Assembly (NCBI GenBank): GCA_003142375.1
Contig: PLME01000004.1
Location: 69,060-133,059, forward strand
Direction of reading: 5' to 3'
DNA: 64,000 nt
Source of the DNA: Dehalococcoidia bacterium
Lineage (GTDB): Bacteria > Chloroflexota > Dehalococcoidia > GIF9 > UBA5629
Part shown: positions 4,626 through 31,870 of the stretch, in pieces
Layout of the letters: every line of letters begins with the position of its first letter
Position numbering within the stretch: position 1 is the first letter of the stretch
The notes under the pieces: generated by a model
What the model was told of the DNA's origin: nothing
Databases searched by the model: none
Seen by the model: the letters and a program-made list of their open reading frames with translations, nothing else
Translations under genes and position numbers: made by a program

Positions 4626-6190
4626 TATTTTTTAAAACTAATCTTTAATTTGTCTGCCAGGTCAATGGTATCTTCGTTCTCCAGGGCATGTCTGCCGGTA
4701 CCTTTGATCTCCATCCCGTTAACACGCGTGCCGTTGGTGCTGCTGCGGTCCTCGATGTAGTACTGGTCATTCTCATACCAGATGTTGATATGCTGCCTGG
4801 ATATATAAGAGACGCTATCCTGCGGCAGGAATTTATCGAAATCATGCCTGCCGAATGACCTGGAGTTGCCTGCCAGCAATATCTCGCTGCCATCCGGCAT
4901 CGAAAGCTTGGCCGGAGGGATTTCCACCACCGATGTTACAGCAGGGGCTGTACCGGCCGGCATAGTAGCCCCGGCAGGGCTGGTGCCCGCTGCACGAGTG
5001 GTTGAAGCCTGCGAAGTAGCCACTTTGGCAGGTTTTCTGACCAGCAGTGCTGCGATGATGACCGCTGCTACCGCCAGCAAAGCTATGAGACCCCAGAGCA
5101 AAATGGGTGGATGCTGGACGTTGACGGTTACCGATGCTGACTGTGACGAACCGTCGATATAAGTGGCTGTCAGGTTATAAGTAGTCGTATTCTCGGGCGA
5201 TACCCTGGCGCTGCCACTGGAGCCGTAGCTGCCCACGCCTGAAATGTACACCTGCGTTGCGGAGGGGGCATCCCATGACAGGGTGGCATACTGGCTGCTC
5301 TGTATGGTGGCCTGGTCGGTTCTGAGTATGGGAGCTACCCTGGGCATAACCGCAATAGTCAGGGAGGACGATATGGGATTGCCCGAGTTGCCTGTAGCCG
5401 TAAGAGTGTAGGCGGTCGTGGCCGACGGAGTAACTGTAGTAGTCCCGGATGAGGCCACCGTGCCCACGCCCGGCGAGATAGTCACGCTGTTGGCATTGCT
5501 GGTCGTCCAGGTCAGGGTTGCCGTCTGCCCCAACTCCAGAGAAGATAAGCTGGCGTTAAATGAGTTTATTACAGGGGCTGCCACGGGTGTTGGTGTTGGG
5601 CCTGGTAGATCGTTCGGATAGTAGCCCCGGGTATAGTTGAAGCTCAGCGTGCGCGTCGACCAGCTGAAACCGGAGATGAACCACATCTTCCAGAAATAGC
5701 GGCCGGATGAGTCCCATTGCTGGGCGGCGAAGGGGCCTATCCTCCAGATGCCTGCACCGGGACGGTACCACCGGTAGCACAGCCAGTGCCCGTAAGGGCT
5801 GCTGCCCGAGGGGTAATACTCCCATAGATAAAAGTAGCCGGGGCCATTGAAGGATATGATCAGATAAACCTGCTGAGTGCTGTAAAGGTTGGTCAGCAGT
5901 TGCCCGTAGCTGTTAACCAGGTAGGCATTTGTAATCGAACTGGGTATGCCCGGTTCAACCTGTGAAGGCATAGGTATCTGCAAAGCCGGCCAATTCTGGC
6001 CGTAGGTTTCTACACCGACCGAAGGGTCCAACGAGGTCCCGCTGTCGTAGGGCGGCTGCCAGGTGTCATCGGGGCTCATGGGTGGCGTAGCTTCCGACTG
6101 GGCCAGAACCGGGGAAAACATGCTGACCGCTGAAGTACATATCAGTGTTAATATGAGCAGTGGCATCAATATCTTTTTCATAGCGAACAA
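4625..6190 (-). CDS. Membrane FHA-domain protein with extracytoplasmic Ig-like domains
   Basis: Signal peptide LLILTLICTSAVSMFSPVLAQ; repeated 'LSWTTSNANSVTISPGVGTV...TPSATTAYTLTATG' Ig-like modules; TM LLWGLIALLAVAAVIIAALLVRK; FHA SFGRHDF...ISRQHINIWYENDQYYIEDRSSTNGTRVNG. Confidence 0.85.
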   Translation of the reverse strand: MFAMKKILMPLLILTLICTSAVSMFSPVLAQSEATPPMSPDDTWQPPYDSGTSLDPSVGVETYGQNWPALQIPMPSQVEPGIPSSITNAYLVNSYGQLLTNLYSTQQVYLIISFNGPGYFYLWEYYPSGSSPYGHWLCYRWYRPGAGIWRIGPFAAQQWDSSGRYFWKMWFISGFSWSTRTLSFNYTRGYYPNDLPGPTPTPVAAPVINSFNASLSSLELGQTATLTWTTSNANSVTISPGVGTVASSGTTTVTPSATTAYTLTATGNSGNPISSSLTIAVMPRVAPILRTDQATIQSSQYATLSWDAPSATQVYISGVGSYGSSGSARVSPENTTTYNLTATYIDGSSQSASVTVNVQHPPILLWGLIALLAVAAVIIAALLVRKPAKVATSQASTTRAAGTSPAGATMPAGTAPAVTSVVEIPPAKLSMPDGSEILLAGNSRSFGRHDFDKFLPQDSVSYISRQHINIWYENDQYYIEDRSSTNGTRVNGMEIKGTGRHALENEDTIDLADKLKISFKK

Positions 6191-6249
6191 TCAACTCCGT
6201 TGAAATAATTTCTTTTTAAATAAATATACTCAGTCCGGGAGGCGATTGC

Positions 6250-6288
6250 TTGACTGCGGGCTTACAAGTCACTGACAGTTTTCTGACA
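6250..6288 (+). promoter_or_regulatory. Four-unit 11-bp-period direct repeat (putative winged-helix regulator operator)
   Basis: TTGACT(6250) CTTACA(6261) CTGACA(6272) CTGACA(6283), exact 11-bp spacing, upstream of the FHA gene starting at 6190. Confidence 0.6.
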
Positions 6289-6388
6289 AAATGAACTAAG
6301 GCGGAGTCTCTCCGGGAAAAATCGACGCACAATCTGCAAAGCAGACTTGAAAAACTCGAATCGGCGGCGAGACTGTTATTAGGGCCGG

Positions 6389-6853
6389 TTATTTCTTTCT
6401 CAGCGGGTAAACCGCGCCACTTATTAAGAGAAAGAATATAAGCGCGCCGCTTATATAAAGAATGCGTTTTGGGTCGGAGAAGCTTTCCACCGTGAAGCTG
6501 CCGGCAGGAGCGTTGCCGACATATACCGTGTAGGTACCCGGCTCGACGCAGCTCACGGTAAATTTAATGGAGGTTTTGCTGCCGCTAGGCAGGGTAACGC
6601 TCTGGTCTGCCACTTCATGGTCGTTGACGTAGAGCTTGATCTGGGCCGAGCCATCGGCCGTGCCTGTGTTAGCCACCTCCGCAATGACCGCAACAGGAGC
6701 GTGCGGGGCTACTCTGGTTGCGGATAGCGAGGCGCTTATTATGAATATATTGGCTTTGGCTGCGGACGCATAAGCAGCCGGAGCCCACAACAAAACCATA
6801 GGCAACAACGCTGCCAGGAGCAACAATTTAGATGCCGCGGCTTTTTTGATCAT
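6389..6853 (-). CDS. CARDB-like membrane protein
   Basis: Signal peptide, 'VAPHAPVAVIAEVANTGTADGSAQIKLYVNDHEVADQSVTLPSGSKTSIKFTVSCVEPGTYTVYVGN' CARDB-like module, C-terminal TM followed by RKK. Confidence 0.65.
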   Translation of the reverse strand: MIKKAAASKLLLLAALLPMVLLWAPAAYASAAKANIFIISASLSATRVAPHAPVAVIAEVANTGTADGSAQIKLYVNDHEVADQSVTLPSGSKTSIKFTVSCVEPGTYTVYVGNAPAGSFTVESFSDPKRILYISGALIFFLLISGAVYPLRKK

Positions 6854-7001
6854 TTAAGGCCCCAGACTCAAAGATAACAAATAATGTTGATAATGTCTGG
6901 CCCCAATCCGCTATTAATTAAGATACTATATGGTTAAATAATACAGATATGAGCTTTGTTACTAGGCCGCTGCGGATGTAACAGGCATTGTTTAAGGAAG
7001 A

Positions 7002-8108
7002 TTAAAGGACGAGAAACTCCAGCTTGATGGCCCCGGCCGGCTCTATGGTATCCCCATCATTAAGATCCACCGGCCCCTTGCCTTTGATGTCGATGCTGTT
7101 GAGCAACGTGCCGTTGGCGCTGCCCCCATCTTCGATAGAGAACTGGTCCCCGTCGAGGTTAATAATGAACTGCTTGCGGGAGATGAGCCCCAGATCGTCC
7201 AGTTCCAGCGCCCGTGCCAGCTCTCCCCTGCCCATAATTTTGCTGGCGCCTGCAAGCTGTATTTCCATACCGTTGGGCAGGGACAGTTTGGCCCTGGCTG
7301 CTGCCCGGGGTACAGCGGCAACGGAGATTTTATCGGGAGTAGAAATAAAGGAGGCTTCTTCGCCGTGAGGTTCAACCGGTTTTGGCTCCCTGACCGGCTT
7401 CACACGCCTCCTGCTGTAAATCCTGTACAAGAAGACAACGATGACTATCACCGAGGGGCCGAACAGGAGCACCAGCGGGTTGGTAATAAAATTAGATAGC
7501 TGATCCGTTGGGGAGGCCGCTTGCTCGGTTGTGGGGGCGGGTTGAGAGGGTACCTGTATGGCGGTAGCGCCTTTTGCGTAAGTCCAGTAAACCAGGTTAT
7601 CCCGCGAGCCTCCCGGCTCCTCGGCGGCCCATTGCTCGTTATTGTAAAACCATATCCGATAGATATGCTGTCCCTCCGCCTCGCTATCCATCGGGCTAAA
7701 AGGTCCCAGGCTCCACTGGCCGCTCTGCGGCAACTGCCATTTATAGGCGATCCATTTTCCCTGTTTATTATTGGGAGGGTAATATTCGTAGATATAAAGC
7801 CAGCCAGCGCCGTTGATATCTATATCCAGGTACCAGTTCTCATTGCCCGTGACCATGCCGTTTCCCGACGGGCTGATGAAATCAGCGATAAATACGGGGG
7901 AGCTGTTATCGGTCTGCGATGTAGGCCCCTGGAGTAGGAAGTTGACCGGCGGCTTGATGGCGGGGTATCCCGAGCTGCTATTGGGGAGGTCGGTGATAGT
8001 GTAATTCTCGGTGGGGGCGCCCATGGCCGCAACTCCTGCTGTCCAGCAGGCAGCGAGAGCCAGCAGGCCCAGGGCCCATATGACGGCGGACATCAGCTTG
8101 GTAATCAT
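7002..8108 (-). CDS. Membrane protein with C-terminal FHA domain
   Basis: Signal peptide; extracytoplasmic region; TM PLVLLFGPSVIVIVVFLYRIY; FHA IMGRGELARALELDDLGLISRKQFIINLDGDQFSIEDGGSANGTLLNS; start overlaps kinase stop (ATGA). Confidence 0.85.
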   Translation of the reverse strand: MITKLMSAVIWALGLLALAACWTAGVAAMGAPTENYTITDLPNSSSGYPAIKPPVNFLLQGPTSQTDNSSPVFIADFISPSGNGMVTGNENWYLDIDINGAGWLYIYEYYPPNNKQGKWIAYKWQLPQSGQWSLGPFSPMDSEAEGQHIYRIWFYNNEQWAAEEPGGSRDNLVYWTYAKGATAIQVPSQPAPTTEQAASPTDQLSNFITNPLVLLFGPSVIVIVVFLYRIYSRRRVKPVREPKPVEPHGEEASFISTPDKISVAAVPRAAARAKLSLPNGMEIQLAGASKIMGRGELARALELDDLGLISRKQFIINLDGDQFSIEDGGSANGTLLNSIDIKGKGPVDLNDGDTIEPAGAIKLEFLVL

Positions 8109-9136
8109 TTTTTTGCTGTCGCCTCCGCGGGTTTTACGGGGCAGCCGTTTTCAGGTGAGAGCGCAGAGCGCATTGCACCGGCATCGGCGAACCTGTCGCC
8201 GGGGGCGAACATGATGGCCTGCGCCAGGCACCTGGCTGTCCGCTTGGATATACCCACTGATATAAGGTAATCTGCGACCTTCCCAGCCTCGGCGTATGTG
8301 CGCGGCCAGTTCGATTTGAACAGTCCTGAGCAGATCTCGTTGGGCTGTCTGAGTGTAAGCAGGTAAATGGCGGTTTGTGCCAGGCCGCACAGGTCACAGC
8401 GCTGGTCGGCCTCGCCGCCCAGGAATAGCTCGGGGATATCGAAGCCTTTATTGGCGATCTGCGTGAAGGGGTCACCGCGTTCCTTGTCCTTGTCAGTCTC
8501 GTTCATGTTTTTGGCCGTGCCGAAGTCGATCAGCTTAACGGAGCCGTCGCTGACCAGCATGATGTTCTTGGGGTTCACATCCCTGTGAATAATGCCCGCG
8601 GCATGGATATAGCCCAGTGCGTCCAGCAGATTGCAGGCCCAATCAAGCACCTTCTTTTCGCCGGGTGAAGACCTGGGAGATGAGGACATCAGGGTCTCCC
8701 CGTTCACAAAATCCATGACCACATGGAACTCGCCGTTATAGTAAAAATCCTCGATATGCTTGACTATGACGGGGTGGTTCAGCCTTTTGAGGTAGCCGGC
8801 TTCCAGCATGAGCTTATCCAGGTAAACATTATCCATGTTGGTTCCCCGGCGCGGCGTCTTGATAATATAAGTCTTGCGTGTCTTGCGCTCGGTGGCGATC
8901 CAGATTGTCGCCATACCCCCCTGTTTAAACGGCTGCAGCCGGGCATCATAGCGTCCATTGACGGGGAAGGTGTTTTTGCCCACGGCGGGCGCCGCTGGCT
9001 GGCTGACCTTTACCTTTTTGGAGGCTGGCTTACGGAGCCTGTATTTACGGGCGACCTGGACCAAGGCCACGGTCAGTGGTATGGCTGCACAGATAGCCAC
9101 TATTATCACGATGATGAGGTTTCTATCGGGTATCAT
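8105..9136 (-). CDS. Membrane-anchored Ser/Thr protein kinase
   Basis: N-terminal TM LIIVIIVAICAAIPLTVALVQVA; kinase motifs YIIKTP, HRDVNPKNIMLVSDGSVKLIDFGTAK, IPELF. ATG at 9136 forms a 4-nt ATGA overlap with the PP2C stop, so it is preferred over the ORF start at 9181. Confidence 0.88.
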   Translation of the reverse strand: MIPDRNLIIVIIVAICAAIPLTVALVQVARKYRLRKPASKKVKVSQPAAPAVGKNTFPVNGRYDARLQPFKQGGMATIWIATERKTRKTYIIKTPRRGTNMDNVYLDKLMLEAGYLKRLNHPVIVKHIEDFYYNGEFHVVMDFVNGETLMSSSPRSSPGEKKVLDWACNLLDALGYIHAAGIIHRDVNPKNIMLVSDGSVKLIDFGTAKNMNETDKDKERGDPFTQIANKGFDIPELFLGGEADQRCDLCGLAQTAIYLLTLRQPNEICSGLFKSNWPRTYAEAGKVADYLISVGISKRTARCLAQAIMFAPGDRFADAGAMRSALSPENGCPVKPAEATAKK

Positions 9137-9939
9137 GATGCCGTCCTGATACTGGTTTTGGCGTTTGTCAGGGCTTGCCATGAAGGCAGGTTGACCGGCC
9201 TGGCTATAATGACCGATATATTATCGGGACCGCCCGCCAGATTGGCGTCGGCTGTCAATTCAGCGCAGGCCTGGCTGGGTCCGGGGGAATTCAGCACGGC
9301 TTCGGTGATCTTCTCCCCGGGGAGCACTCCGCATAGCCCGTCCGAGCAAAGAAGGATATTATCCCCTGCATACAGCTTCAACTGTATCAGGTCGGGGGTG
9401 CTGTCTCCCGAGTAGCCGAGGACACGGGTTATTTCGTTGCGGCGCGGGTGGCTTCTGGCTTCCTCCTGGGTGATCTTCCCGGCATCCACAAGCTGCTGGA
9501 CGACCGAGTGGTCCCTGGTGACCTGCAGGGTCTCGCGTGTGTTGATGATATAGCAGCGTGAGTCACCTATATGGGCCACATACATGTCATGGTCGATTAC
9601 CAGCGCGGCGGTAAGCGTGGTGCCCATGCCCTGCAGATCCCTGTCCCCTGCGGCCTCTATAACGCTGCTGTTGGCCCTGTCGAAGGCATCCGACATGATG
9701 GTGAGGGGTGCAGAGGGCGACCGTTCCAGCAGGCCGGCCAGGCACTCCGCGAAGAAGGTTTTAACGGCAAGGTTGCTGGCGACCTCCCCGGCATTGTGTC
9801 CTCCCATGCCGTCGGCCACGGCGAACAACCCGGCCGATGCCGTGCTCAGATGGGTCTTGATTTCAAAGCTGGTAAAAAAAATACTGTCTTCGTTCAGCTT
9901 GCGCAGAAGTCCTGTATCCCAGCCGTAGCTTATATCCAA
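9133..9939 (-). CDS. PP2C-family Ser/Thr protein phosphatase
   Basis: MDISYGWDTGLLRKLNEDSIFF...LFAVADGMGGHNAGEVAS...AHIGDSRCY...LLCSDGLCGVL...GGPDNISVIIA. Confidence 0.95.
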   Translation of the reverse strand: MDISYGWDTGLLRKLNEDSIFFTSFEIKTHLSTASAGLFAVADGMGGHNAGEVASNLAVKTFFAECLAGLLERSPSAPLTIMSDAFDRANSSVIEAAGDRDLQGMGTTLTAALVIDHDMYVAHIGDSRCYIINTRETLQVTRDHSVVQQLVDAGKITQEEARSHPRRNEITRVLGYSGDSTPDLIQLKLYAGDNILLCSDGLCGVLPGEKITEAVLNSPGPSQACAELTADANLAGGPDNISVIIARPVNLPSWQALTNAKTSIRTAS

Positions 9940-18675: not shown

Positions 18676-19458
18676 CTATAAAGTGGAATGGCTCTGGCGT
18701 GCCAGGACGGCTGCGCCCAGGGCGGCCATCAGCCGGGGATTATCGGGGACAATGGCCTTGATAGCCAGCTTTTCTTCGATGGCCTGCACCAGGCCGATAT
18801 CCAGTGCTCCGCCGCCGATAATGACGACTTCCTTCTCTAACGTGAAGCCGCGGGCCATGGCGGCGACCTTTTCAGCGATGGAGTGGTGTATGCCGGCCAG
18901 AATATCCTCCGGCCGGTCGCCTTGCGAAATGCGCGTGATGACCTCGGTCTCGAGGAAGACGCTGCACGAAGTGGAGAAATTGGATGGCTTAGTCGCTTTT
19001 AATGAAAGTGGACCTATCTGGTCCATACTTATTTGTAAAATGCGTGCCAGCACCTGCAGCAGCCGTGCACTGCCCGTGGCGCAGATCTCGGATGCGGTGA
19101 AATTGATGATGTTACCCTCTTCGTCGATGGTGATCACCTGGCTGCCCTGGCCACCGATATCGATGATGCTGCGGGCAGCAGGGAACGAAAGGCTGACGCC
19201 CCTGGCAGAGCAGATAATTACTCCGTGATAACTATCGGCCCCGGCGTTCCTGCCGCCGATGCCTGTAGCTGCGCTGACTTTAATATCGGAAGCCTGTAGC
19301 CCCGCTTTGCCGAGGGCTTCGGCTTTTAAGGCGGCCGTGGTGTTCACGTAGTTGGTGCCGGAGGGTATGACCGCCGATGCTACAATGTCCTTGTTATTGA
19401 CGATGACGGCCTTGCTGCCGACCGACCCGATATCTATCCCCAGAAAATACTCTGTCAC
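18676..19458 (-). CDS. BcrA/D-HgdC-type ASKHA ATPase activator (divergent paralogue)
   Basis: VTEYFLGIDIGSVGSKAVIVNNKD...DIGGQGSQVITIDEEG...ICATGSARLLQVLARILQI; GTG start preferred because upstream ORF extension overlaps the next activator. Confidence 0.85.
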   Translation of the reverse strand: MTEYFLGIDIGSVGSKAVIVNNKDIVASAVIPSGTNYVNTTAALKAEALGKAGLQASDIKVSAATGIGGRNAGADSYHGVIICSARGVSLSFPAARSIIDIGGQGSQVITIDEEGNIINFTASEICATGSARLLQVLARILQISMDQIGPLSLKATKPSNFSTSCSVFLETEVITRISQGDRPEDILAGIHHSIAEKVAAMARGFTLEKEVVIIGGGALDIGLVQAIEEKLAIKAIVPDNPRLMAALGAAVLARQSHSTL

Positions 19459-20333
19459 CGGCCGTTCTCCCCGAAATCGATGCGGGCTTCGCTGAGCTTT
19501 TTCTCCCGGTGGGCATCGTATTCGCCGCTCTTGATAAGCTGATTGTACTGATCGTGCGCCAGTATGGCCGCGCCCAGGGCGCCCGTGATAAGCGGCTCTT
19601 CCGGCACCAGCACGGGCACGCCCAGCACGGTCTCGATAGCCTTGACCATACCGGCGTTCTTGGCCACTCCCCCGGTGAAGACAACGGGAGGCTCGACCTT
19701 CAACTGCCGGGCCAGCTTGACCACGCGTGTGGCTATTGCGATATATACCCCGGCCAGTATGTCGGGCAGGGGCTGGCCTTCGGACAAACGGGAAATGATC
19801 TCCTGCTGTGCGAAGATGGTGCACAGGCTGTTGATCCTGACCGGCTTGTCGGTCTGGAGAGATATGCGTCCCATCTCGTTGAGGTCCAGCCCGAGTGTTT
19901 CAGCGGCCACCTCGAGGAACCTGCCTGTGCCGGCGGCGCATTTATCGTTGGTCAGGAAATCGGTTAGCTTACCGTCTTTGATGCGGAGCACCTTGGCGTC
20001 CTGTCCGCCGATATCGATGGCCGTGCGCACGTCCGGGAAGAGGGAGGCCACACCTTTGGCATGGCAGGTGAGCTCGGTGACCTGTTTGTCGGCGAAGGGC
20101 ACATTGACCCGGCCGTAGCCGGTGGAAATGATATAGGCGACTTTATCCAGCGGTATGCCGGCTTTCTGGAGCACGTCCTCCATGACCTTATTGGCGCGTA
20201 AGCGGTGTTCGGCGCCTGTCTGCCCCACCACGTAGGCACGCATGCCGCTCCGGGCGTCAACTATGACGGCCTTGGACATGGTGGAGCCGATATCTATGCC
20301 GGCGAAGAAAAGTTCTGAAGTAGGATCATTCAT
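19455..20333 (-). CDS. BcrA/D-HgdC-type ASKHA ATPase activator
   Basis: MNDPTSELFFAGIDIGSTMSKAVIVDA...IDIGGQDAKVLRIKDGKLTDFLTNDKCAAGTGRFLEVAAETLG. Confidence 0.9.
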   Translation of the reverse strand: MNDPTSELFFAGIDIGSTMSKAVIVDARSGMRAYVVGQTGAEHRLRANKVMEDVLQKAGIPLDKVAYIISTGYGRVNVPFADKQVTELTCHAKGVASLFPDVRTAIDIGGQDAKVLRIKDGKLTDFLTNDKCAAGTGRFLEVAAETLGLDLNEMGRISLQTDKPVRINSLCTIFAQQEIISRLSEGQPLPDILAGVYIAIATRVVKLARQLKVEPPVVFTGGVAKNAGMVKAIETVLGVPVLVPEEPLITGALGAAILAHDQYNQLIKSGEYDAHREKKLSEARIDFGENGR

Positions 20334-20352
20334 TGGCGGCCCTGTGCTTACC

Positions 20353-21525
20353 TCAGCCCAGTGTCTCCACGAATGCCTCCACCCTGGTTTTAATGGGAGC
20401 CAGCGACCTTTCGCTGTAGTCGTGCTCGATATAGAGGCTGGGTATGCCCAGCCCATCCAGATAGTGCCTCAAGTTGGGCACTTCGTAGCCGTGTGTGTCG
20501 CAGTACTTAACGCTCTGCAAAATAGCTCCGTCCACCTTCCAGTCATTCACGGCCTTCTTGATATAGTCGAACCTGCTTTCCAGGTCTTTATCATAATTCT
20601 TTTTTAACTCGGAGGGCTCCGACTGGCGGTAGGTGCGGGGGCACTTGAGGTCTACAAGGTAGCGCTGTGCCAGGCTGTGCAGGTCGTAGGGCGGCTTCAC
20701 ATCGGCCCAGAAAGCACGTGTGCCAACGCAGGTATCGTCAACTACCACGCTGGCGCCGGCGCTCTCTATCAACTCATAAAGTGAGGTATTATCGAAAACA
20801 GGGCCCCAGACCAGCAGGCGGGCCTTCTTTTTATCCGGTTTGTCTTTGCGCTCCTTGACCTCTTCGATCACATTTTCCAGGAGCTCGTTGCCCTCTTCCA
20901 CCGGCAGGCTGAAGAGTGCCACCAGCACCTCCAGGTTCTCCATGGAGGTCAGCAGGGGCGGGTCGGGCTTGCGCAGGTCGTAAAGCTGCCTGACGAGTTT
21001 GCGCTGCCTGTTATGCAGTTCAACAGCTTTGGCCAGCTTGTCATCGGTCAGCTGCTGCCCGGCAAACTCCTCAAGGTGCCGCTTGAAGGAGTTGATTTGC
21101 CCTTCAAAATAATCAACGGCCGGGGCATGGTCGGTATGCGGCACGTCCAGCAGGTGCGAAAAATTGGGCGATTTGACGAAATCGCGCCACTGCAGGATGA
21201 GTCCTGCCCCGATATCGCAGGTATGGGCGCCCACAACCCCGTCCAGGAAGTTGAATTTGCCTTTCAGCGCCAGGTCCATGATGCTGCGCAGGAAGGGGCA
21301 GACGACCGTGGTGGATACCTGGTCGGCGGCCGTGATGGTCTCGTTCATATCTCCGAAAATGCGGAAGGGGATCATGCCCAGCGCGGTGATCAGTTCGACA
21401 GGGGGATAAAGGCATATATAGCCGATGATTTTCTTGCCGGATTTGCGCAGTTCACGCATGCGCAGACCCCTGTCCTGATAAACGCCCTTTGCCAGGGATA
21501 GCCCTTTCGTAATTGCTATTACCAT
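20353..21525 (-). CDS. 2-hydroxyacyl-CoA dehydratase / benzoyl-CoA reductase family subunit (BcrC/BzdN/HgdB-like)
   Basis: GKKIIGYICLYPPVELITALGMIPFRIFGDMNETITAADQVSTTVVCPFLRSIMD...VGAHTCDI. Confidence 0.88.
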   Translation of the reverse strand: MVIAITKGLSLAKGVYQDRGLRMRELRKSGKKIIGYICLYPPVELITALGMIPFRIFGDMNETITAADQVSTTVVCPFLRSIMDLALKGKFNFLDGVVGAHTCDIGAGLILQWRDFVKSPNFSHLLDVPHTDHAPAVDYFEGQINSFKRHLEEFAGQQLTDDKLAKAVELHNRQRKLVRQLYDLRKPDPPLLTSMENLEVLVALFSLPVEEGNELLENVIEEVKERKDKPDKKKARLLVWGPVFDNTSLYELIESAGASVVVDDTCVGTRAFWADVKPPYDLHSLAQRYLVDLKCPRTYRQSEPSELKKNYDKDLESRFDYIKKAVNDWKVDGAILQSVKYCDTHGYEVPNLRHYLDGLGIPSLYIEHDYSERSLAPIKTRVEAFVETLG

Positions 21526-21551: not shown

Positions 21552-22913
21552 TTACCAATCCAGGCCCTGTGCTTTGCGGACCTTGCGGTAGTGTTCCATG
21601 GTCTGTTCAAAGGCTTCCGCCCTGGCCAGCGTTTCCTGCGGATTGAAAACACGCTTGTCGATAATGTCGCCCTCTACCCACAGGGTGGGCACATTGAGCT
21701 TTTTCATCAGGAATTCCTGCATCGACCTCAGACCGGCGCTGGCGGCGCGGCAGGAGATGAGCGGATGCAGGAAGAACCCGTCAATTTTGTAGCCCCTGGC
21801 TGCGCGTAGGTAGATCTCCGCCACCGGGTTGGCAATACCATCCTCCAGCGCACAGGAGTGTATGTTGAAAACAAAATTGCGTGAGAGGCGTGCCATTTTC
21901 TCCAGCGGGTCGCTGACACGGCTGAGATCGGGCGGCTTGGGGGCATGATATCCGTAGCTTTCGAAAACAAAGTTCCAGCCCTTCTCGGCCAGGCTGTCGA
22001 AGAATTTAAGGCTGTGCCAGGGCGGCAGCTCGGCGAATATGATGCGGTATTTTTCCGGGTAGTTGATGCCTGCGACCTTATTGTTTACACGTTCCTGCAG
22101 CTCGGCCAGCATATCCTGATAGAGCTTGAGGGCCGTGGCCATATCTCCGGCGAAGAAGAGAGAAGGGGGCATGCTGCTCCAGAAATCGGTGCTGTGCATA
22201 GGGCCCGGAACCGATTTGCGCAGCTCGCTGATCTGCCAGGTAGTCTCGTGGATTTTAACGGCCAGGTCGATCAGCTCTTCCAGCCTGGCCCAGTCCATTT
22301 TCCTGCCTAACAATTTCTCAAGGAAGGCGATAAAGGCCTGCAATTCCTTGACCAGGAACTTTATCTGATAGCCTTCCAGGTCCGGCTCTGTGCCTTCGGC
22401 GGTGCCCATCATGGGCATCTCGAGCACCCACTGCGGTGCATCGAAATACCTTCCCAGCGCCTGGAACCATTTGAAACGTGCGTCGCAGATAATGCCGGAG
22501 CCCAGCAGCAGGGTGGGCTTGGCCATGCCCCCCAGCGGCGCCTCGGGAGGTATGCGGCCGTTAAGGTCTTTCATCATGCGGTAGGAGTAGCCGATCGTGC
22601 TCCGGCCGTAGCCGCAAAGGTGAGTTGGGTAACCGTCCGAATCCGCGGCATCCAGGAAGGGCTCGGCGCTGCCCGTGGAGGCCAGCAGGGTGGAGTAGTT
22701 CTCGGGGTAAACGATGTTGAGCCCCATAGCCTTGAGGGGCAGGTCCCCTTCCCAGTAGTTGAGCATGGCCCATACCGTGGGTTTGCCCTCGTTACTGGCG
22801 TTCAGTGTATCTATGTAGTCCTGCTGCACCAGGTTGCGCAGCGGGTACATGCTTTTAAGCCGGTTGATGGCCCTTTTCTGGTCGGTTTTGGCGGGAGCTG
22901 CGGTTTCGCTCAT
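21552..22913 (-). CDS. 2-hydroxyacyl-CoA dehydratase / benzoyl-CoA reductase family subunit (BcrB/BzdO/HgdA-like)
   Basis: 453 aa; VWAMLNYWEGDLPLKAMGLNIVYPENYSTLLAS...LCGYGRSTIGY...GFFLHPLISCRAASAGLRSMQEFL; paired with preceding family member. Confidence 0.85.
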   Translation of the reverse strand: MSETAAPAKTDQKRAINRLKSMYPLRNLVQQDYIDTLNASNEGKPTVWAMLNYWEGDLPLKAMGLNIVYPENYSTLLASTGSAEPFLDAADSDGYPTHLCGYGRSTIGYSYRMMKDLNGRIPPEAPLGGMAKPTLLLGSGIICDARFKWFQALGRYFDAPQWVLEMPMMGTAEGTEPDLEGYQIKFLVKELQAFIAFLEKLLGRKMDWARLEELIDLAVKIHETTWQISELRKSVPGPMHSTDFWSSMPPSLFFAGDMATALKLYQDMLAELQERVNNKVAGINYPEKYRIIFAELPPWHSLKFFDSLAEKGWNFVFESYGYHAPKPPDLSRVSDPLEKMARLSRNFVFNIHSCALEDGIANPVAEIYLRAARGYKIDGFFLHPLISCRAASAGLRSMQEFLMKKLNVPTLWVEGDIIDKRVFNPQETLARAEAFEQTMEHYRKVRKAQGLDW

Positions 22914-23040: not shown

Positions 23041-23778
23041 CTAAGGGTCTTCGACAGTATAGCGGGCCCATGAGTCACTGCCGTGCCCATCCGGTTTTTC
23101 CCTGCGCTCCCGGTCCCAATTGTCCTTGAGATGCTTCACCTCGATAGTTTTAGCGGCGGGTGGAATGCAAAGGTCATTAGAACCGCGCGCGATCAAAACA
23201 GCGTAATTTTCGCACACATCCGCATATTGCTCTATTGTATAGAAGTGGTAGAGATGCCACCCTTTGAGGACCCAGGTGTGGCAGATCATTTCGATATTGA
23301 CTGCCGCCAGCAGCGGGTCGCAGGTCTTGAACTGTCCCTGTCTGCATCCTTGATCTAAGATCTCTTTAAAAAGGCTGACTGTACGGAATTCCGTATGTAC
23401 CACATCCTCCAATTGGTCCCATTCCAGGTGCTGTGACGTGTTATACCAGAAGAGCACCATTTTATCTCTTGAATCGATAAGGTATAGGTATTTCCTGACG
23501 GCCTTCTTCAGCATCTCCTCCGGCGCCGTATCTTCCATCTCCTTACGTACTTCCCTCTCCCATTTACGTATATCCCTTATGTGTACTTTGCAGAAGATGC
23601 GGGGGAAATCGTATTTAGAGGTTATGTAGTGATAGAGGGTCCCCACGCTGATGCCGCGCACCCCGGCGATATCCCGGGCTGAAGTTTGCCAGAATCCTTT
23701 TTCGAAAAACAGGCTGGCAGCCACCTTGCAGATCTGCTGCAGCTTTTTCCCTGAGGGTTTCTTCTCGCTGTTGGCCAT
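23041..23778 (-). CDS. TetR family transcriptional regulator
   Basis: ICKVAASLFFEKGFWQTSARDIAGVRGISVGTLYHYITSKYDF. Confidence 0.92.
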   Translation of the reverse strand: MANSEKKPSGKKLQQICKVAASLFFEKGFWQTSARDIAGVRGISVGTLYHYITSKYDFPRIFCKVHIRDIRKWEREVRKEMEDTAPEEMLKKAVRKYLYLIDSRDKMVLFWYNTSQHLEWDQLEDVVHTEFRTVSLFKEILDQGCRQGQFKTCDPLLAAVNIEMICHTWVLKGWHLYHFYTIEQYADVCENYAVLIARGSNDLCIPPAAKTIEVKHLKDNWDRERREKPDGHGSDSWARYTVEDP

Positions 23779-23974: not shown

Positions 23975-24081
23975 ATCGGTTAGCTTCGATATTCAATACA
24001 TAGCGGCAGTTTATTAAGGGATGGTATTATATAAAAGGGTTTCAATACACTCCATAGATGATGAGGCAGGTAAGAGAAGCG

Positions 24082-24405
24082 ATGGTCAAGATGACAGCCG
24101 AAGCCAGAGAGGCGGTCAAATCGTTTTTGACAACGAGAGATAATCCGCGGACGATTCGTATAGACCTGCATTCCACCGGATGCTGCGATTCTTCGCTGGG
24201 CCTGAGTGTGGATGAGGTTCGAGAGAATGATTTAATCCAGGAGATAGACGGCCTGACACTTGTTATCAATCCCGAAATTTACGAGCTTGTGGGAGAAATC
24301 ACTATTTCCTACGTGGATGAAAAAGGTAAGAAAGGATTTGTCTTGAATTCCGGTAAGCCGCTGAACGAGTGGGACGGATTCGGGACCTGTGAGATAAAGC
24401 AATAA
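24082..24405 (+). CDS. HesB/IscA-like protein
   Basis: MVKMTAEAREAVKSFLTTRDNPRTIRIDLHSTGCCDSSLGLSVDEV...INPEIYELVGEITISYVDEKGKKGFVLNSG; start 24058 or 24082 uncertain. Confidence 0.65.
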   Translation: MVKMTAEAREAVKSFLTTRDNPRTIRIDLHSTGCCDSSLGLSVDEVRENDLIQEIDGLTLVINPEIYELVGEITISYVDEKGKKGFVLNSGKPLNEWDGFGTCEIKQ

Positions 24406-24483
24406 CATCGCATATGTAAAGGTGAGCAATTACCTTAGATATGGCATCTTGTATCTAAAAAATATAATAGGAGGGAGGCACAA

Positions 24484-27144
24484 GTGGAACAATACAAGCT
24501 GTTCATCGATGGCAAATTTGTAGACGCAGCCAGTGGCAAGACCTTCGAATCCATTGACCCCGGCACCGAGGCCCCTTTAGCGACCATAGCACAGGCAGGT
24601 AAAGCCGATGCGGAGGCGGCTATAGCCGCAGCGCGCAAGGCATTCAACAGCGGCGTGTGGAGCGGGCTTACCCCGGCCGCCCGCATGGCCAAGATTCACG
24701 ATTTTGCAGACGAGGTAGCCAAGCAGGGCCTGCGCCTGGCAGCAACCGAGTGCATGGACTCGGGCCAGATCATAGGCCTGGCCAAGTTTTCCCCTTTGCT
24801 GGGCATCGGGTTTTTGCGCAACATGGCCCTGGCAGCGGCCACAAAATTCCCCTGGGAAGAGGAGATCCCTGTATCCGGTAACGCCTTCGGGCCCGGCCGT
24901 GAGTTTATCCGCAGGGAGCCCATCGGCGTGTGCGTCGGCATTATACCCTGGAACTTCCCCATGACCATGGCTTTCTGGAAAATCGCCCCTTCTCTGATCA
25001 TGGGCAATTGCCTGGTTTTGAAGCCTGCTTCAAATACCTCGTTGAGCGCCCTTATCATCGCCGAATGCGCCAAAGCGGCAGGCATTCCTGACGGCGTGAT
25101 AAACGTTATCGCCGGCCCGGGCGGCGAGCTGGGCAGTGTCCTTTGTACCCATCCTGACGTGGACAAGGTTGCCTTTACAGGCAGCACCGAAGTCGGGCGT
25201 GAGATCATGAGGATGGCCGCGGATACAGTTAAAAAGGTCACGCTGGAACTGGGCGGCAAATCGGCCAATATCATTCTTGACGATGCCGATATGGAGCTGG
25301 CCGTGGAGGGCGCCTGCTTCGGCACCTTCTTCCATCAGGGCCAGATATGCGAATCGGGCACCCGTGTGCTGGTACCATCCAAGATATATGATCAATTCGT
25401 AGAAAAGATGAAGAAACGTGCGGAAGCCTTGCGCATCGGCTATCAGCTTGATCCTACTTCGCATATGGGTCCGCTGGTCAGCAAACAGCAGCTTGCTACG
25501 GTAGAACGCTACGTTAAGATCGGCAAGGACGAAGGCGCCAAACTGGTGACAGGCGGCAAACGCGTTGAGGTAGCGGGAATTAAGGGCGGCTACTATTACG
25601 CTCCGACTATCTTTGCCAACGTGAATAACAAGATGCGCATTGCACAGGAGGAGATCTTTGGCCCGGTGGTCTGCGTGATTAAATACGACAGCGATGAAGA
25701 GGCGGTAGCGATTGCCAACGATTCGATTTACGGCCTGGGGGGCGGCATATTTTCCTCCAATCAGGCCAGGGCCGAACGTGTGGCCCGCGGCGTACGCACC
25801 GGCACGATGTGGATAAACAACTATCATATCTTTTCCGATTATTGCCCCTTCGGCGGCTATAAACAGTCAGGCGTGGGACGCGAGCTCGGCCTTGCGGGAC
25901 TTCATGAATACACTGTGATCAAGCGTGTACACGTCAATACTATGGCTGATGCCAAGACCAACATGACCTTCCAGCTTATGTCTGACTATAAGAAAGTTGA
26001 CGGTTTTGCCTATAATTGCCCGACGACGGTGGTCGCGGGACACGGCGCTCTCAGCTCAATCTATAAGGCGATAGTAGACCTGGGCTGCAAGCGAGCTTTG
26101 ATACTCACCGATCCGGGTGTCAACAAGGCCGGACTGGCACAAAAGGTAAAGAATGCCCTGGCAGATTTCTGCGTGGGTATCTACGACAAAATCCCACCCG
26201 ACCCCGACCTGGAAGCGGTGGATGCAGCGACAGCAGTAGCGCGTGAGTTGAAAGCGGACTGCATTGTAAGTGTAGGCGGCGGCAGCGTTATCGACACCGC
26301 AAAAGGTGTCTGCGTAACCCTGAAGAACGGCGGCAACGCCAACGATTACCTGAACTTCCTAGTGCTGACGGAGCCTCAGACCCCGCACATAGCCATCCCG
26401 ACAACCTCGGGGACGGGCAGTGAGGTGACCAACGTGTCGGTACTGACCAGCCATAAAGCCGGGCGCAAACTTTTCATAGTCGATGCCAGGATCATGCCAA
26501 ATGTGGCCATCCTGGACCCGATCTTTTCCCTGTCCCTGCCCAAAGATATGACCGTTAGCACGGCCATGGATGCCATGACGCACGCCATCGAAGCTATGAC
26601 CAGCACCATGTCGAATAAGATCTGCGACGGCATGGCCCTGCAGGCCATCCGCCTGATCAATGAGAACCTTCCACTGGTGGCAGCGGATGGCAAAAATGAG
26701 AAGGCCAGGCTGAACATGCAGCTTGCCGCCACCATGGCAGGATGGGCCTTCACCATCGCACAGGTGGGCCTGGCGCATGGTATGGCCCATACCGTTGGTG
26801 CGCTGCACCATGTTCCGCACGGAGCGGCCTGCGGCATAATCCTTCCCAAGGTGATGCGCTATAACGTGGAGACCTCGGCGGACAAGCTGGCGCAAGTAGC
26901 ACACGCGCTCAACGTCAACACCTCTAATATGTCTGATCGTGATGCTGCCCTGGCGGCGGCGGATGCAATTGAAGCCCTGATGGTCAAGGTCGGACACCCG
27001 ATGAGACTGCGCGATATGGGCGTGCCTGAGGAAAGCATCCCTGTCTGCGCTTTCCACGCCATCGCAGATACGGCTGTCATCTTCAATGGGCGGCCTGTAA
27101 ACGATCCCAACGACATTATCAAGCTTTACACAGAGGCTTACTAG
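24484..27144 (+). CDS. Fused classical aldehyde dehydrogenase :: iron-containing alcohol dehydrogenase
   Basis: One 886-aa ORF (GTG start). N-half: classical ALDH (PWNFPMTMAFWKIAPSL, FTGSTEVGR, TLELGGKSANII, GQICESGTR). C-half: Fe-ADH (IVSVGGGSVIDTAKG, IPTTSGTGSEVT, DAMTHAIEAM, GMAHTVGALHHVPHG). Confidence 0.92.
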   Translation: MEQYKLFIDGKFVDAASGKTFESIDPGTEAPLATIAQAGKADAEAAIAAARKAFNSGVWSGLTPAARMAKIHDFADEVAKQGLRLAATECMDSGQIIGLAKFSPLLGIGFLRNMALAAATKFPWEEEIPVSGNAFGPGREFIRREPIGVCVGIIPWNFPMTMAFWKIAPSLIMGNCLVLKPASNTSLSALIIAECAKAAGIPDGVINVIAGPGGELGSVLCTHPDVDKVAFTGSTEVGREIMRMAADTVKKVTLELGGKSANIILDDADMELAVEGACFGTFFHQGQICESGTRVLVPSKIYDQFVEKMKKRAEALRIGYQLDPTSHMGPLVSKQQLATVERYVKIGKDEGAKLVTGGKRVEVAGIKGGYYYAPTIFANVNNKMRIAQEEIFGPVVCVIKYDSDEEAVAIANDSIYGLGGGIFSSNQARAERVARGVRTGTMWINNYHIFSDYCPFGGYKQSGVGRELGLAGLHEYTVIKRVHVNTMADAKTNMTFQLMSDYKKVDGFAYNCPTTVVAGHGALSSIYKAIVDLGCKRALILTDPGVNKAGLAQKVKNALADFCVGIYDKIPPDPDLEAVDAATAVARELKADCIVSVGGGSVIDTAKGVCVTLKNGGNANDYLNFLVLTEPQTPHIAIPTTSGTGSEVTNVSVLTSHKAGRKLFIVDARIMPNVAILDPIFSLSLPKDMTVSTAMDAMTHAIEAMTSTMSNKICDGMALQAIRLINENLPLVAADGKNEKARLNMQLAATMAGWAFTIAQVGLAHGMAHTVGALHHVPHGAACGIILPKVMRYNVETSADKLAQVAHALNVNTSNMSDRDAALAAADAIEALMVKVGHPMRLRDMGVPEESIPVCAFHAIADTAVIFNGRPVNDPNDIIKLYTEAY

Positions 27145-27325: not shown

Positions 27326-27613
27326 ATGGCCAGGATAAATATTAACTTTACCGGCTCATGGAGGCTTTTTGTCGGTGTGGGCGCTGTGGCCGCGGATGTG
27401 AACAGCATCGGGGAAGCCAGGGAATATATCGAGACCAATTACGGCCCCGCCTACCGGGATAAATTGCTTTCAATGGGAGTAAAAAGGCAGTTATCTATCT
27501 GGCAGAGCAGCAATGTTCTGCTGAACGGCAAGAGCGTAAAGCAGATGGCCGAAGACTCCAAATTAAAAGATGGTGACAAACTGGACCTGCTGCTGGCAGT
27601 GGCCGGCGGTTAA
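27326..27613 (+). CDS. MoaD/ThiS-family sulfur-carrier-like protein
   Basis: 95 aa; ...NVLLNGKSVKQMAEDSKLKDGDKLDLLLAVAGG, beta-grasp pattern with C-terminal GG. Confidence 0.8.
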   Translation: MARININFTGSWRLFVGVGAVAADVNSIGEAREYIETNYGPAYRDKLLSMGVKRQLSIWQSSNVLLNGKSVKQMAEDSKLKDGDKLDLLLAVAGG

Positions 27614-27659: not shown

Positions 27660-28067
27660 CTAATCCAGCCACTCGGTGGGTACTTGCATGGTGCAGTTGG
27701 TCAGTTCGGTAGCTGCCTTGGTATAGCGCATGATTTTGGTCATGTCGCCCGAGAGCTTTGATTGCCTGGTGATCAATGCTGCAGTGGCGCCCAGCTTCTT
27801 GGTGGCTATTTGTTTCCAGACAGAATAGGCAGCCGAAAGGACGAAGGCGGGTTTGTATTTAGTGACATCTGTGACAATTTCGCAGGCACGGCACTTGCCG
27901 TGCCAGAGATCTACATACATATAAGCTTTCTCGGTAACCGGGCCTCCCGCCTCGGTAACGAAGTAAAAATCACCCTCCCAAGTCTTGGCAGAATCCTCAT
28001 AAGCTTTGCTGTTATTGAGCGCATCTTTAAACAGGGCACACCACTCTTGAGTCAAATATTTTGCCAT
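27660..28067 (-). CDS. SCP2 sterol-binding-like small protein (copy 1)
   Basis: MAKYLTQEWCALFKDALNNSKAYEDSAKTWEGDFYFVTEAGG...; clear paralogue of 28379-28786. Confidence 0.65.
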   Translation of the reverse strand: MAKYLTQEWCALFKDALNNSKAYEDSAKTWEGDFYFVTEAGGPVTEKAYMYVDLWHGKCRACEIVTDVTKYKPAFVLSAAYSVWKQIATKKLGATAALITRQSKLSGDMTKIMRYTKAATELTNCTMQVPTEWLD

Positions 28068-28232
28068 AATGCCCACCCCCTAGTTGAAATTTAACGTAGT
28101 ATAGGCCTAAACGGTCAATCTTCCAAGCTCTATCTTTCAACCTGGTTAAGTTCCGCTGGGACGCAATGATTCTAAAAAGGTTTTCTTGAAAATGGTCTCC
28201 ATAGAGTGTCTTTTATCGAGTGATAGTTAATA

Positions 28233-28378: not shown

Positions 28379-28786
28379 ATGGCACAGTATGCAACTCAGG
28401 AATGGTGTGACCTTTACATGGAGGCGCTGAATAAGAATACGGCCTGGTCGGAAGCCGCCAAGACATGGGAAGGCGATTTCTATTTTATTTTTGAGGTTGG
28501 AGGCCCGATCAAAGAGCCGCGTTATATGTATATAGATCTCTGGCACGGTGTCTGCCGTGGCTGCGAAATGGTTACCGACACCAGTGAACACAAGCCTGAA
28601 TTCATCATTTCAGCGCCTTATCAAATTTGGAAAAGGATTTGTACCAAGCAACTCGATTCCACCCAGGCCATTATTACCAAACAGTCCAAGCTTACCGGCA
28701 ATATGGCCAAGATCATGCGCTACACCAAGGCGGCCAATGAGTTGACCAATACCACTCAGCAGCTGCCGACTGAATGGGAAGACTAG
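28379..28786 (+). CDS. SCP2 sterol-binding-like small protein (copy 2)
   Basis: MAQYATQEWCDLYMEALNKNTAWSEAAKTWEGDFYFIFEVGGPIKEPRYMYIDLWHGVCRGCEMVTD. Confidence 0.65.
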   Translation: MAQYATQEWCDLYMEALNKNTAWSEAAKTWEGDFYFIFEVGGPIKEPRYMYIDLWHGVCRGCEMVTDTSEHKPEFIISAPYQIWKRICTKQLDSTQAIITKQSKLTGNMAKIMRYTKAANELTNTTQQLPTEWED

Positions 28787-28828: not shown

Positions 28829-30001
28829 ATGTGGGCTTTTTCATCCCCAATGATTTCGTACGGCGATAATGCGCTGGAGTACATACTTCAAATCAGAGGT
28901 AACAAGGCTTTCGTTGTCGCAGATAAGAACATTGTAAAGCTGGGGCTTTTAAAGCTGGTGACAGACCAGCTCGATGCCGCAGGTAAGAAATGGGAAGTAT
29001 TCGACGATGTCGAGCCCGAACCGTCTCTCATAACGATTAAAAAGGGCGGCGCCGCAGTGGCTAAATTCCAGCCCGATTGGGTGATCGGCGTGGGCGGCGG
29101 CTCGGTCATGGATGCGGCCAAGGCCATTATCCTGTTGCTGGCCAGGCCGGACCTGGAGCCCGACGCTCTTTCACCGGCGGAGACGTTCAATTTCAGGGAC
29201 AAGGCCAGGCTTATGGCCATCCCTACTACCAGCGGCACCGGATCCGAAGCGACCTGGGCTATTGTACTCACCGATACGGTGCTCGGCCGCAAACTCGGCC
29301 TGGGTACACCCGAATGCATGCCTGATGTAGCCATACTCGATCCCGTTATGGTGATGGGCATGCCCCCGATGATTACGGCCGATACCGGCATGGACGTCCT
29401 GTGCCACGCCATCGAAGGATACACATCCGCCTGGGGCACCACCATTACCGACGGGCCGGGACTGATTGCGACGCGACGGGTTTTCCAGTACCTGGTCAAA
29501 GCCTATAAGGATGGCTCCGACCTGGAAGCACGCAGGGAAATGATGTACGCGGCTACACTGGGCGGCATGTCTTTCGGCAATTCGATGGCCGGCCTGGGGC
29601 ACAGCCTGGGGCATGCGCTTGGGGCCCTTTTCCATGTCCCCCACGGGCGAGCAGTTGGGCTCTTCCTGCCGTATACGATGGAATACCTTGTGAACGGCTC
29701 GGAAGAGACCACTAAAAAATATGCCGAAATGGCCCGCTTTTGCCTTGGGGCCAGTGGCAATGACAAGGCATGTGCTAAGGCCCTGATTGCCGCCGTACGG
29801 AAACTGGCCAAAACCCTGGCACAGCCGCTCTCTGTAAAAGACTGCGGCATCGATAAAGCTAAATATGACAAAGCAATACCTGATCTGGTTGACCGTGCTT
29901 TGAATGAAACCATGACCATCACGGTCACGCGAATTCCGGAGAGCGAGGACCTGAGCAAAATGTACGCCTATGTTTACGAGGGCAAACCAATCGATTTCTA
30001 A
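28829..30001 (+). CDS. Iron-containing alcohol dehydrogenase
   Basis: IGVGGGSVMDAAKAI, IPTTSGTGSEATW, DTGMDVLCHAIEGYTS, AGLGHSLGHALGALFHVPHGRAVG. Confidence 0.93.
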   Translation: MWAFSSPMISYGDNALEYILQIRGNKAFVVADKNIVKLGLLKLVTDQLDAAGKKWEVFDDVEPEPSLITIKKGGAAVAKFQPDWVIGVGGGSVMDAAKAIILLLARPDLEPDALSPAETFNFRDKARLMAIPTTSGTGSEATWAIVLTDTVLGRKLGLGTPECMPDVAILDPVMVMGMPPMITADTGMDVLCHAIEGYTSAWGTTITDGPGLIATRRVFQYLVKAYKDGSDLEARREMMYAATLGGMSFGNSMAGLGHSLGHALGALFHVPHGRAVGLFLPYTMEYLVNGSEETTKKYAEMARFCLGASGNDKACAKALIAAVRKLAKTLAQPLSVKDCGIDKAKYDKAIPDLVDRALNETMTITVTRIPESEDLSKMYAYVYEGKPIDF

Positions 30002-30022: not shown

Positions 30023-31870
30023 ATGAACGGATACTGGGGAAAGATACTGGTTGCAGACCTCACAAAGGGCGTTTTATCCGAAGAGCCGCTCAATGAAAAA
30101 TATGCCCGCGATTTCCTGGGAAGTACGGGCCTGGCGGCGCGCTATCTCTTCGACATGGTAAATGCAAAGACCGACCCATTGGGGCCCGATAACCCTCTGA
30201 TTCTGATGCCCGGGCTTTTCAACGGTACCAGTGGGCCCAGCGTAAGCCGCTGGGGCGGCGCAACTGTTTCGCCGTATACCGGACATTATGGCGATGCCAA
30301 TGCAGGCGCCTGGTTCGGAGCTGAATTCAAGAATGCCGGTTACGATGGCATTATACTCAAAGGTCAATCCCCGAAACCCGTTTACATTTTCATCCGGGAC
30401 GGCGTGGCTGAGATCAAGGATGCCGCTCACCTGTGGGGCAAAGATACTTACAAGACGCAGGAGGCAATCAAGAGCGAATATGACGATAGCCGCGTGCAGG
30501 TAGCCTGTATCGGACCTGCTTCCGAGAATCTCGTGCCCTTTGGCAATATCATGTCGGAGTGGGGGCATTGCCTGGGGCGAGCCGGGCTGGGCTGCGTGAT
30601 GGGCTCTAAAAAAGTCAAGGCCATAGCCGTACGAGGCAAGTTGAAGATCCCTATGCAGGACCCCGAAAAATTCCGCGAAGCAGCGAAAAAGGCCATGGAT
30701 GAAGTTAAAGAAGGTTTTCTTAGCCTCATAATGCATGAGACCGGGACGGCCGGGTGGGTCGATTCCGCTATTAGCTACGGAGATGGGCCGACCCGCTATT
30801 ACACCGCGCCCACCATGCCGGAGGCGACGGATTTAAGCGGCGTCACGCAACTGGAGAAGTACCAGACGGGCAATACCGCATGCTACGGTTGTCCCATACG
30901 CTGCCGCAAAGTACTGCAAATAAAAGAGGGCAAGTATTTATACGATAAAGTTGAAGGCCCCGAATATGAAACGGTAATGGCCTGGGGTCCCATGCAGGGG
31001 CTGGTCCTCGACATGTCTACTTCGGTATATTTCAATGAGCTATGCAATTCGTATGGTTATGATTCCATCAGCAGCGGCGCCAGTGTCGGCTATGCCTATT
31101 ACCTTTATGAACTGGGGGTTATAACTGAAAAAGATACAGGCGGGCTGAAGCTCAATTGGGGTAACATCGACGCTGCCATTGAGTTGGCGCATCTCATAGG
31201 CAAGAATGAGGGCTTCGGCAAGATACTGGCCGGCGGGACCAGGCGCATGGCCCAAAAATACGGCCGTCCCATCGGGGAAGCAGTTCAGTGCAAGGGCCTT
31301 GAGTTTCCCATGCATGAACCCAGGGCTTACCATTCGATGGCGCTGGTTTACGCCACAGCCCCGCGCGGCGCCGATCATAATAAGAGCGATGCCTACCAGG
31401 TAGACGGCGGTACTGGCCATTTTGACCTCGGCCTTAATGCCGGGGACCGCTGGGATAACGACAAGGCTGCCATGGTGGAAAAAAGCCAGAATTTCAGGGC
31501 GCTGACCGATTCGCTGGGCATCTGTCATTTCTGCATGCTGCCCTTCGTCAGCATGGTTGACATGGTAAATGCTGCTACCGGCTGGAATACCGACGTCGAC
31601 CAGCTACTCAAGACAGGCGAGCGCGTCTTCCAGTTGCAGCGGGCGCTTTCCTGCAAGCTGGGCATTTCGGCCAGGGATGATGTAATGCCTGAGCTTGCTC
31701 TCAGACCCATCCCGGACGGTGGGCAGGAAGGCCACGTGCCCGACATGGAGAAGATGTTGCCCGAATATTACGGCATACGTGAGTGGAATAAAGTCACGGG
31801 GAAGCCTTCAAAAAGCCGGCTGGAAAGCCTGGGAATGGCCGAAATAGCCGCCTCGATCGGCGCACAGTAG
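30023..31870 (+). CDS. Tungsten-dependent aldehyde ferredoxin oxidoreductase family protein
   Basis: MNGYWGKILVADLTKGVLSEEPLNEKYARDFLGSTGLAARYLFD...TACYGCPIRCRK...NELCNSYGYDSISSG. Confidence 0.92.
   Translation: MNGYWGKILVADLTKGVLSEEPLNEKYARDFLGSTGLAARYLFDMVNAKTDPLGPDNPLILMPGLFNGTSGPSVSRWGGATVSPYTGHYGDANAGAWFGAEFKNAGYDGIILKGQSPKPVYIFIRDGVAEIKDAAHLWGKDTYKTQEAIKSEYDDSRVQVACIGPASENLVPFGNIMSEWGHCLGRAGLGCVMGSKKVKAIAVRGKLKIPMQDPEKFREAAKKAMDEVKEGFLSLIMHETGTAGWVDSAISYGDGPTRYYTAPTMPEATDLSGVTQLEKYQTGNTACYGCPIRCRKVLQIKEGKYLYDKVEGPEYETVMAWGPMQGLVLDMSTSVYFNELCNSYGYDSISSGASVGYAYYLYELGVITEKDTGGLKLNWGNIDAAIELAHLIGKNEGFGKILAGGTRRMAQKYGRPIGEAVQCKGLEFPMHEPRAYHSMALVYATAPRGADHNKSDAYQVDGGTGHFDLGLNAGDRWDNDKAAMVEKSQNFRALTDSLGICHFCMLPFVSMVDMVNAATGWNTDVDQLLKTGERVFQLQRALSCKLGISARDDVMPELALRPIPDGGQEGHVPDMEKMLPEYYGIREWNKVTGKPSKSRLESLGMAEIAASIGAQ

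Follow-up and report, generated by a model that had tools for sequence, protein, structure and literature searches.

The gene bdhE at 24484..27144 (+ strand) of the window, i.e., the 64,000 nucleotides of contig PLME01000004.1 analysed here, encodes an 886-aa fusion of an aldehyde dehydrogenase (ALDH) to an iron alcohol dehydrogenase (Fe-ADH), and judged by Pfam domains, alignment to the structure PDB 9LDL and Foldseek this Dehalococcoidia gene is a Chloroflexota addition to the published BdhE family. With a probability of roughly 70% the product acts as a bifunctional BdhE, which would interconvert alcohol and aldehyde and form the free acid, the aldehyde being channelled within a ring homotetramer. 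The ALDH-FeADH architecture as such is not new, because it is that of the BdhE family, which has already been published (Konno et al., 2025, Nat Commun 16:8278, PMC12454647).

The reading frame starts with GTG, comprises 886 codons and contains zero internal stops, confirming the single uninterrupted ORF of the preliminary description. A putative ribosome-binding site (GGAGGGAGG; 24470..24478, +) is located 5 nt before the GTG and the start matches the solved homologue 9LDL, which aligns over residues 2-886; a scan for promoters and terminators around bdhE returned nothing firm. Pfam places a classical aldehyde dehydrogenase domain (PF00171 Aldedh, 549 bits) at residues 12-482 (24517..25929, +) and an iron alcohol dehydrogenase domain (PF00465 and PF25137) at residues 513-886 (26020..27141, +), the latter consisting of an Fe-ADH match at residues 513-679 (165 bits) and an ADH_Fe_C match at residues 690-886 (191 bits), in the domain order that had been described. 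The 30-residue gap between the Pfam domains forms the inter-domain linker (residues 483-512; 25930..26019, +), which is of equal length in 9LDL and of low confidence in the AF2 model. The motifs PWNFP, ELGGKSAN and GQICESGTR quoted earlier are all found in the product. By alignment, the oxyanion-hole residue Asn157 (ALDH Asn169 position; 24952..24954, +), Glu255 corresponding to the general base Glu268 of ALDHs (25246..25248, +) and the invariant nucleophile Cys289 (ALDH Cys302; 25348..25350, +) are present in the N-terminal half, and alignment to FucO and AdhE shows the Fe-ADH metal-ligand positions Asp696, His700, His765 and His779 to be kept in the C-terminal half.

Homologous unfused genes often adjoin (L022, L024, L033), and an assembly chimera or a frameshift might thus fuse two neighbors artificially. 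Such an artefact is of vanishingly small probability and was ruled out by the identical fusion of identical length in many independent genomes and by the solved structure. A full-length single-frame fusion with 98% identity is present in a genome of the same genus, and intact fusions of 52-86% identity occur in many independent MAGs labelled as Dehalococcoidia/Chloroflexi, Deltaproteobacteria including Desulfobacteraceae, and Myxococcales; in an Acidimicrobiaceae MAG (L016) the frame is cut by the contig end. Because the fusion is intact in independent MAGs and aligns to 9LDL free of gaps, it is a product of neither chance nor chimerism, and the real ALDH and Fe-ADH fusion proposed beforehand is borne out. 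Among the sampled genomes of the class bdhE was found in 11/343, own genome included (E <= 1e-180). Copies with a stop or a frameshift were seen in the MAGs L012, L013, L018, G004 and L119, which may reflect sequencing error or decay. The genome G012 carries two bdhE genes (L117 4343-7000 and L116 1750-4407), which are 63% and 75% identical to bdhE of PLME01000004.1; one lies beside genes for an aldehyde:ferredoxin oxidoreductase (AOR), SCP2 and Fe-ADH, the other beside an HGD-D trio.

A sequence search of the PDB resulted in one full-length match, 9LDL (886 aa, 1297 bits), which is the cryo-EM structure of Halomonas eurihalina BdhE (Konno et al., 2025). Both proteins share 64.2% identity over 886 positions with zero gaps, residue 1 of 9LDL being taken as Met. 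Foldseek, queried with the AF2 monomer model, ranked 9LDL first and above AdhE structures; this ranking alone was used, because the domain arrangement of the model (16 sequences, pTM 0.48) is uncertain and its whole-chain TM-score of 0.55 against 9LDL therefore carries no information. BdhE (bifunctional dehydrogenase E) was defined as a fusion of ALDH and ADH that arose independently of AdhE; it forms ring tetramers whose ALDH-ADH tunnels are connected, and the main text of that paper does not name Chloroflexota (Konno et al., 2025). The protein described here has a fused N-terminal ALDH and C-terminal Fe-ADH in more than 800 aa, is homologous to the solved BdhE over its full length and clusters with 9LDL apart from AdhE in the trees of both halves. 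From the Halomonas structure and the gap-free alignment, the Dehalococcoidia BdhE is predicted to form a ring tetramer as well, with an ALDH-ADH channel running through BdhE-specific loops, and given the ring shape of the solved tetramer spirosomes would not be expected.

Hydrolytic ALDHs are characterised by Glu268, which CoA-acylating ALDHs lack. The set Asn157, Lys180, Glu255 and Cys289 is kept in 16/16 aligned BdhE rows, 9LDL included, whereas the acylating AdhE/EutE rows (n = 4) carry Thr, Ser/Ala, Val/Ala and Cys, the Cys alone being kept; the position of Glu255 is Val in AdhE and Ala in EutE. Moreover, the identity of the N-terminal half to AldB, BetB and PuuC of E. coli amounts to 40-43% vs. 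23-26% to EutE and the N-terminal half of AdhE. These residues and identities uphold the classical, non-acylating type claimed before, while the phylogenetic check did so in part: the ALDH tree separates acylating from classical rows at 100/99 and unites the BdhE rows in one clade (100/99), but an AU test did not reject BdhE beside the acylating rows (p 0.35), a test of low power because the acylating branch is very long. Two other AU runs with BdhE joined to the acylating clade did not decide the placement either, with p 0.15 and p 0.10 (the latter for a tree that included L074 in antisense and L098 in a wrong frame). Based on residues, identity and published trees, the N-terminal half is classified as a classical (AldB/BetB-like) ALDH; the features of an acylating EutE-type half, i.e., absence of Glu268 and Asn169, were not found. 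The AdhE model NF010378 scores 310 bits vs. a cut-off of 951, which together with the active-site residues rules out membership in AdhE and substantiates the distinction from AdhE drawn in the preliminary description.

In the bifunctional mechanism, the C-terminal Fe(II) alcohol dehydrogenase would interconvert primary alcohol and aldehyde with NAD(H), and the aldehyde would be transferred between the ALDH and ADH domains of neighboring chains in the ring homotetramer. The N-terminal classical ALDH would then oxidise this aldehyde; the free acid is the most likely product, formed when Glu255 assists the hydrolysis of a Cys289 thioacyl intermediate. The residues make a CoA-independent alcohol-to-acid chemistry plausible, and taken together with the neighboring genes they suggest a free-acid product with moderate confidence.

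Alternatively, the protein might be a functional analogue of AdhE, i.e., a CoA-acylating, fermentative enzyme interconverting acyl-CoA and alcohol despite its classical ALDH fold. Halomonas BdhE was reported to oxidise ethanol and choline and to reduce acetyl-CoA, the latter with consumption of NADH, which argues against a purely hydrolytic ALDH (Konno et al., 2025). Furthermore, BdhE and AdhE are mutually exclusive across species (Konno et al., 2025), and AdhE exceeded the curated cut-off in 0/14 genomes, namely the own genome, which is 92% complete, and 13 other bdhE-bearing genomes. This absence agrees equally with the assignment to BdhE. However, the N-terminal half keeps the hydrolytic Glu and the Asn that are absent from all acylating rows. 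NADH was the sole readout of the published assays, CoA-SH was part of the ethanol mixes, and neither a CoA-free control nor an identification of products is listed in the main-text methods (Konno et al., 2025); the ADH half could by itself account for the NADH formed from ethanol. Acylating chemistry is supported by nothing other than the acetyl-CoA result, which agrees poorly with the conservation of the hydrolytic residues, and we regard an AdhE-like function as rather improbable.

The genes surrounding bdhE suggest that a hydrophobic acid, aldehyde or alcohol is turned over anaerobically. Downstream follow a ThiS/MoaD-like protein (27326..27613, +; PF02597), two divergent SCP2-like genes (27660-28076, -; and 28379..28786, +; PF02036), which are situated between bdhE/ThiS and the Fe-ADH/AOR genes, a stand-alone iron alcohol dehydrogenase (28829..30001, +; PF00465, PF25137) and the AOR (30023..31870, +; PF02730, PF01314). 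On the other side, a divergent TetR-type regulator (23041..23778, -; PF00440, PF17932), one of two TetR regulators near bdhE, is accompanied by two subunits of the HGD-D family (2-hydroxyacyl-CoA dehydratase/benzoyl-CoA reductase type; 21552..22913, -, and 20353..21525, -; both PF06050) and by an acyl-CoA dehydratase activase, whose start is uncertain and which overlaps the next gene (19455..20456, -; PF01869, TIGR00241 272 bits). SCP2/Fe-ADH genes with or near AOR accompany bdhE in L004, L006 and L117, AOR in L011, L013 and L018, and the HGD-D trio, there co-directional, in L008/L113 and L116. More distantly, several FHA-domain proteins are encoded beside a Ser/Thr protein kinase at 3093-9181 (-). 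The substrate of BdhE would accordingly be a hydrophobic alcohol or aldehyde, and the enzyme may serve anaerobic oxidation or detoxification of such compounds alongside AOR.

This neighborhood also bears on a role in osmoprotection as a GbsA-GbsB-like choline/betaine-aldehyde enzyme. The top named model for the N-terminal half is betaine-aldehyde dehydrogenase (TIGR01804), the C-terminal half matches the model of the choline dehydrogenase GbsB, and choline is among the compounds oxidised by Halomonas BdhE. Nevertheless, with 530 bits the protein stays below the TIGR01804 cut-off of 668.6 and thus outside this family, the GbsB model reaches 279 vs. 550, the assay in question recorded choline oxidation by AdhE, too (Konno et al., 2025), and the neighbors are AOR, SCP2 and HGD-D enzymes, with no betaine gene recognised among the neighbors scanned. 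This makes osmoprotection a very improbable function.

Next to these genes, a small iron-sulfur-type (HesB/IscA-like) protein of 115 aa with a GCCD motif (24058..24405, +; NF038090 66.8 bits, below the cut-off of 85) is encoded on the strand of bdhE, 78 bp upstream of it. Among 22 genomes tested, such a gene is present in 11/15 bdhE-bearing Dehalococcoidia, adjoining bdhE in all 11, and in 0/7 relatives without bdhE (Fisher two-sided p = 0.004, not corrected for shared ancestry). It lies upstream of bdhE but downstream in G154 and G217, and additional downstream copies occur in L015 and L023. The GCCD motif is kept in 12/12 copies covering it; conservation does not extend to the C-terminal cysteines of IscA. 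HesB is not mentioned in the main text of PMC12454647, and our literature search returned no paper tying HesB-like proteins to alcohol dehydrogenases. We hypothesize that the HesB-like protein supplies iron to the Fe-ADH half. A more far-reaching proposal, which we consider doubtful as a whole, is that a dedicated HesB/IscA-like partner delivers Fe(II) to the ADH half or protects it there in Dehalococcoidia and some Thermodesulfobacteriota, that alcohol is oxidised to acid in a CoA-independent, channelled manner and that BdhE and AdhE are convergent in architecture and not in chemistry.

Regarding the history of the fusion, the ALDH and ADH genes are unfused in L024 (Spirochaetales; ALDH then ADH) and in L022 (ADH then ALDH), and in the ALDH tree no other single-domain rows lie closer to BdhE than these two (81/86). 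The BdhE rows of the ADH tree cluster together with the exception of the divergent L020, whose ADH half falls with single-domain Syntrophales rows with weak support (86). The unfused pairs, and likewise the neighboring aldB and yiaY of E. coli, fit the model that gene adjacency precedes fusion (Konno et al., 2025).

As a summary, a recently described convergent fusion family is extended to uncultured Dehalococcoidia, and a HesB/IscA-like neighbor emerges as a novel partner candidate of an iron alcohol dehydrogenase. The hydrolytic active site is kept in all BdhE members examined; therefore, the published AdhE-like acetyl-CoA claim is directly testable, and at stake is whether the convergence of the two fusions extends to chemistry or is limited to shape. 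Compared to Halomonas BdhE, domain order, the 886-aa length and the catalytic residues are all equal, whereas the protein described here belongs to a Dehalococcoidia MAG, in which its gene is linked to both an AOR cluster and a HesB/IscA-like gene. E. coli AdhE shares the order of N-terminal ALDH and C-terminal Fe-ADH and a similar length but is 29.7% identical, and it differs by its acylating EutE-type ALDH without the Asn/Glu pair, its independent fusion and its helical filament (spirosome). The GbsA-GbsB pair, whose models match both halves, and the AldB-YiaY pair, the closest of the tested E. coli relatives (AldB 43%, YiaY 38%; genes aldB and yiaY), are both encoded by adjoining genes, but in contrast to BdhE these are unfused.
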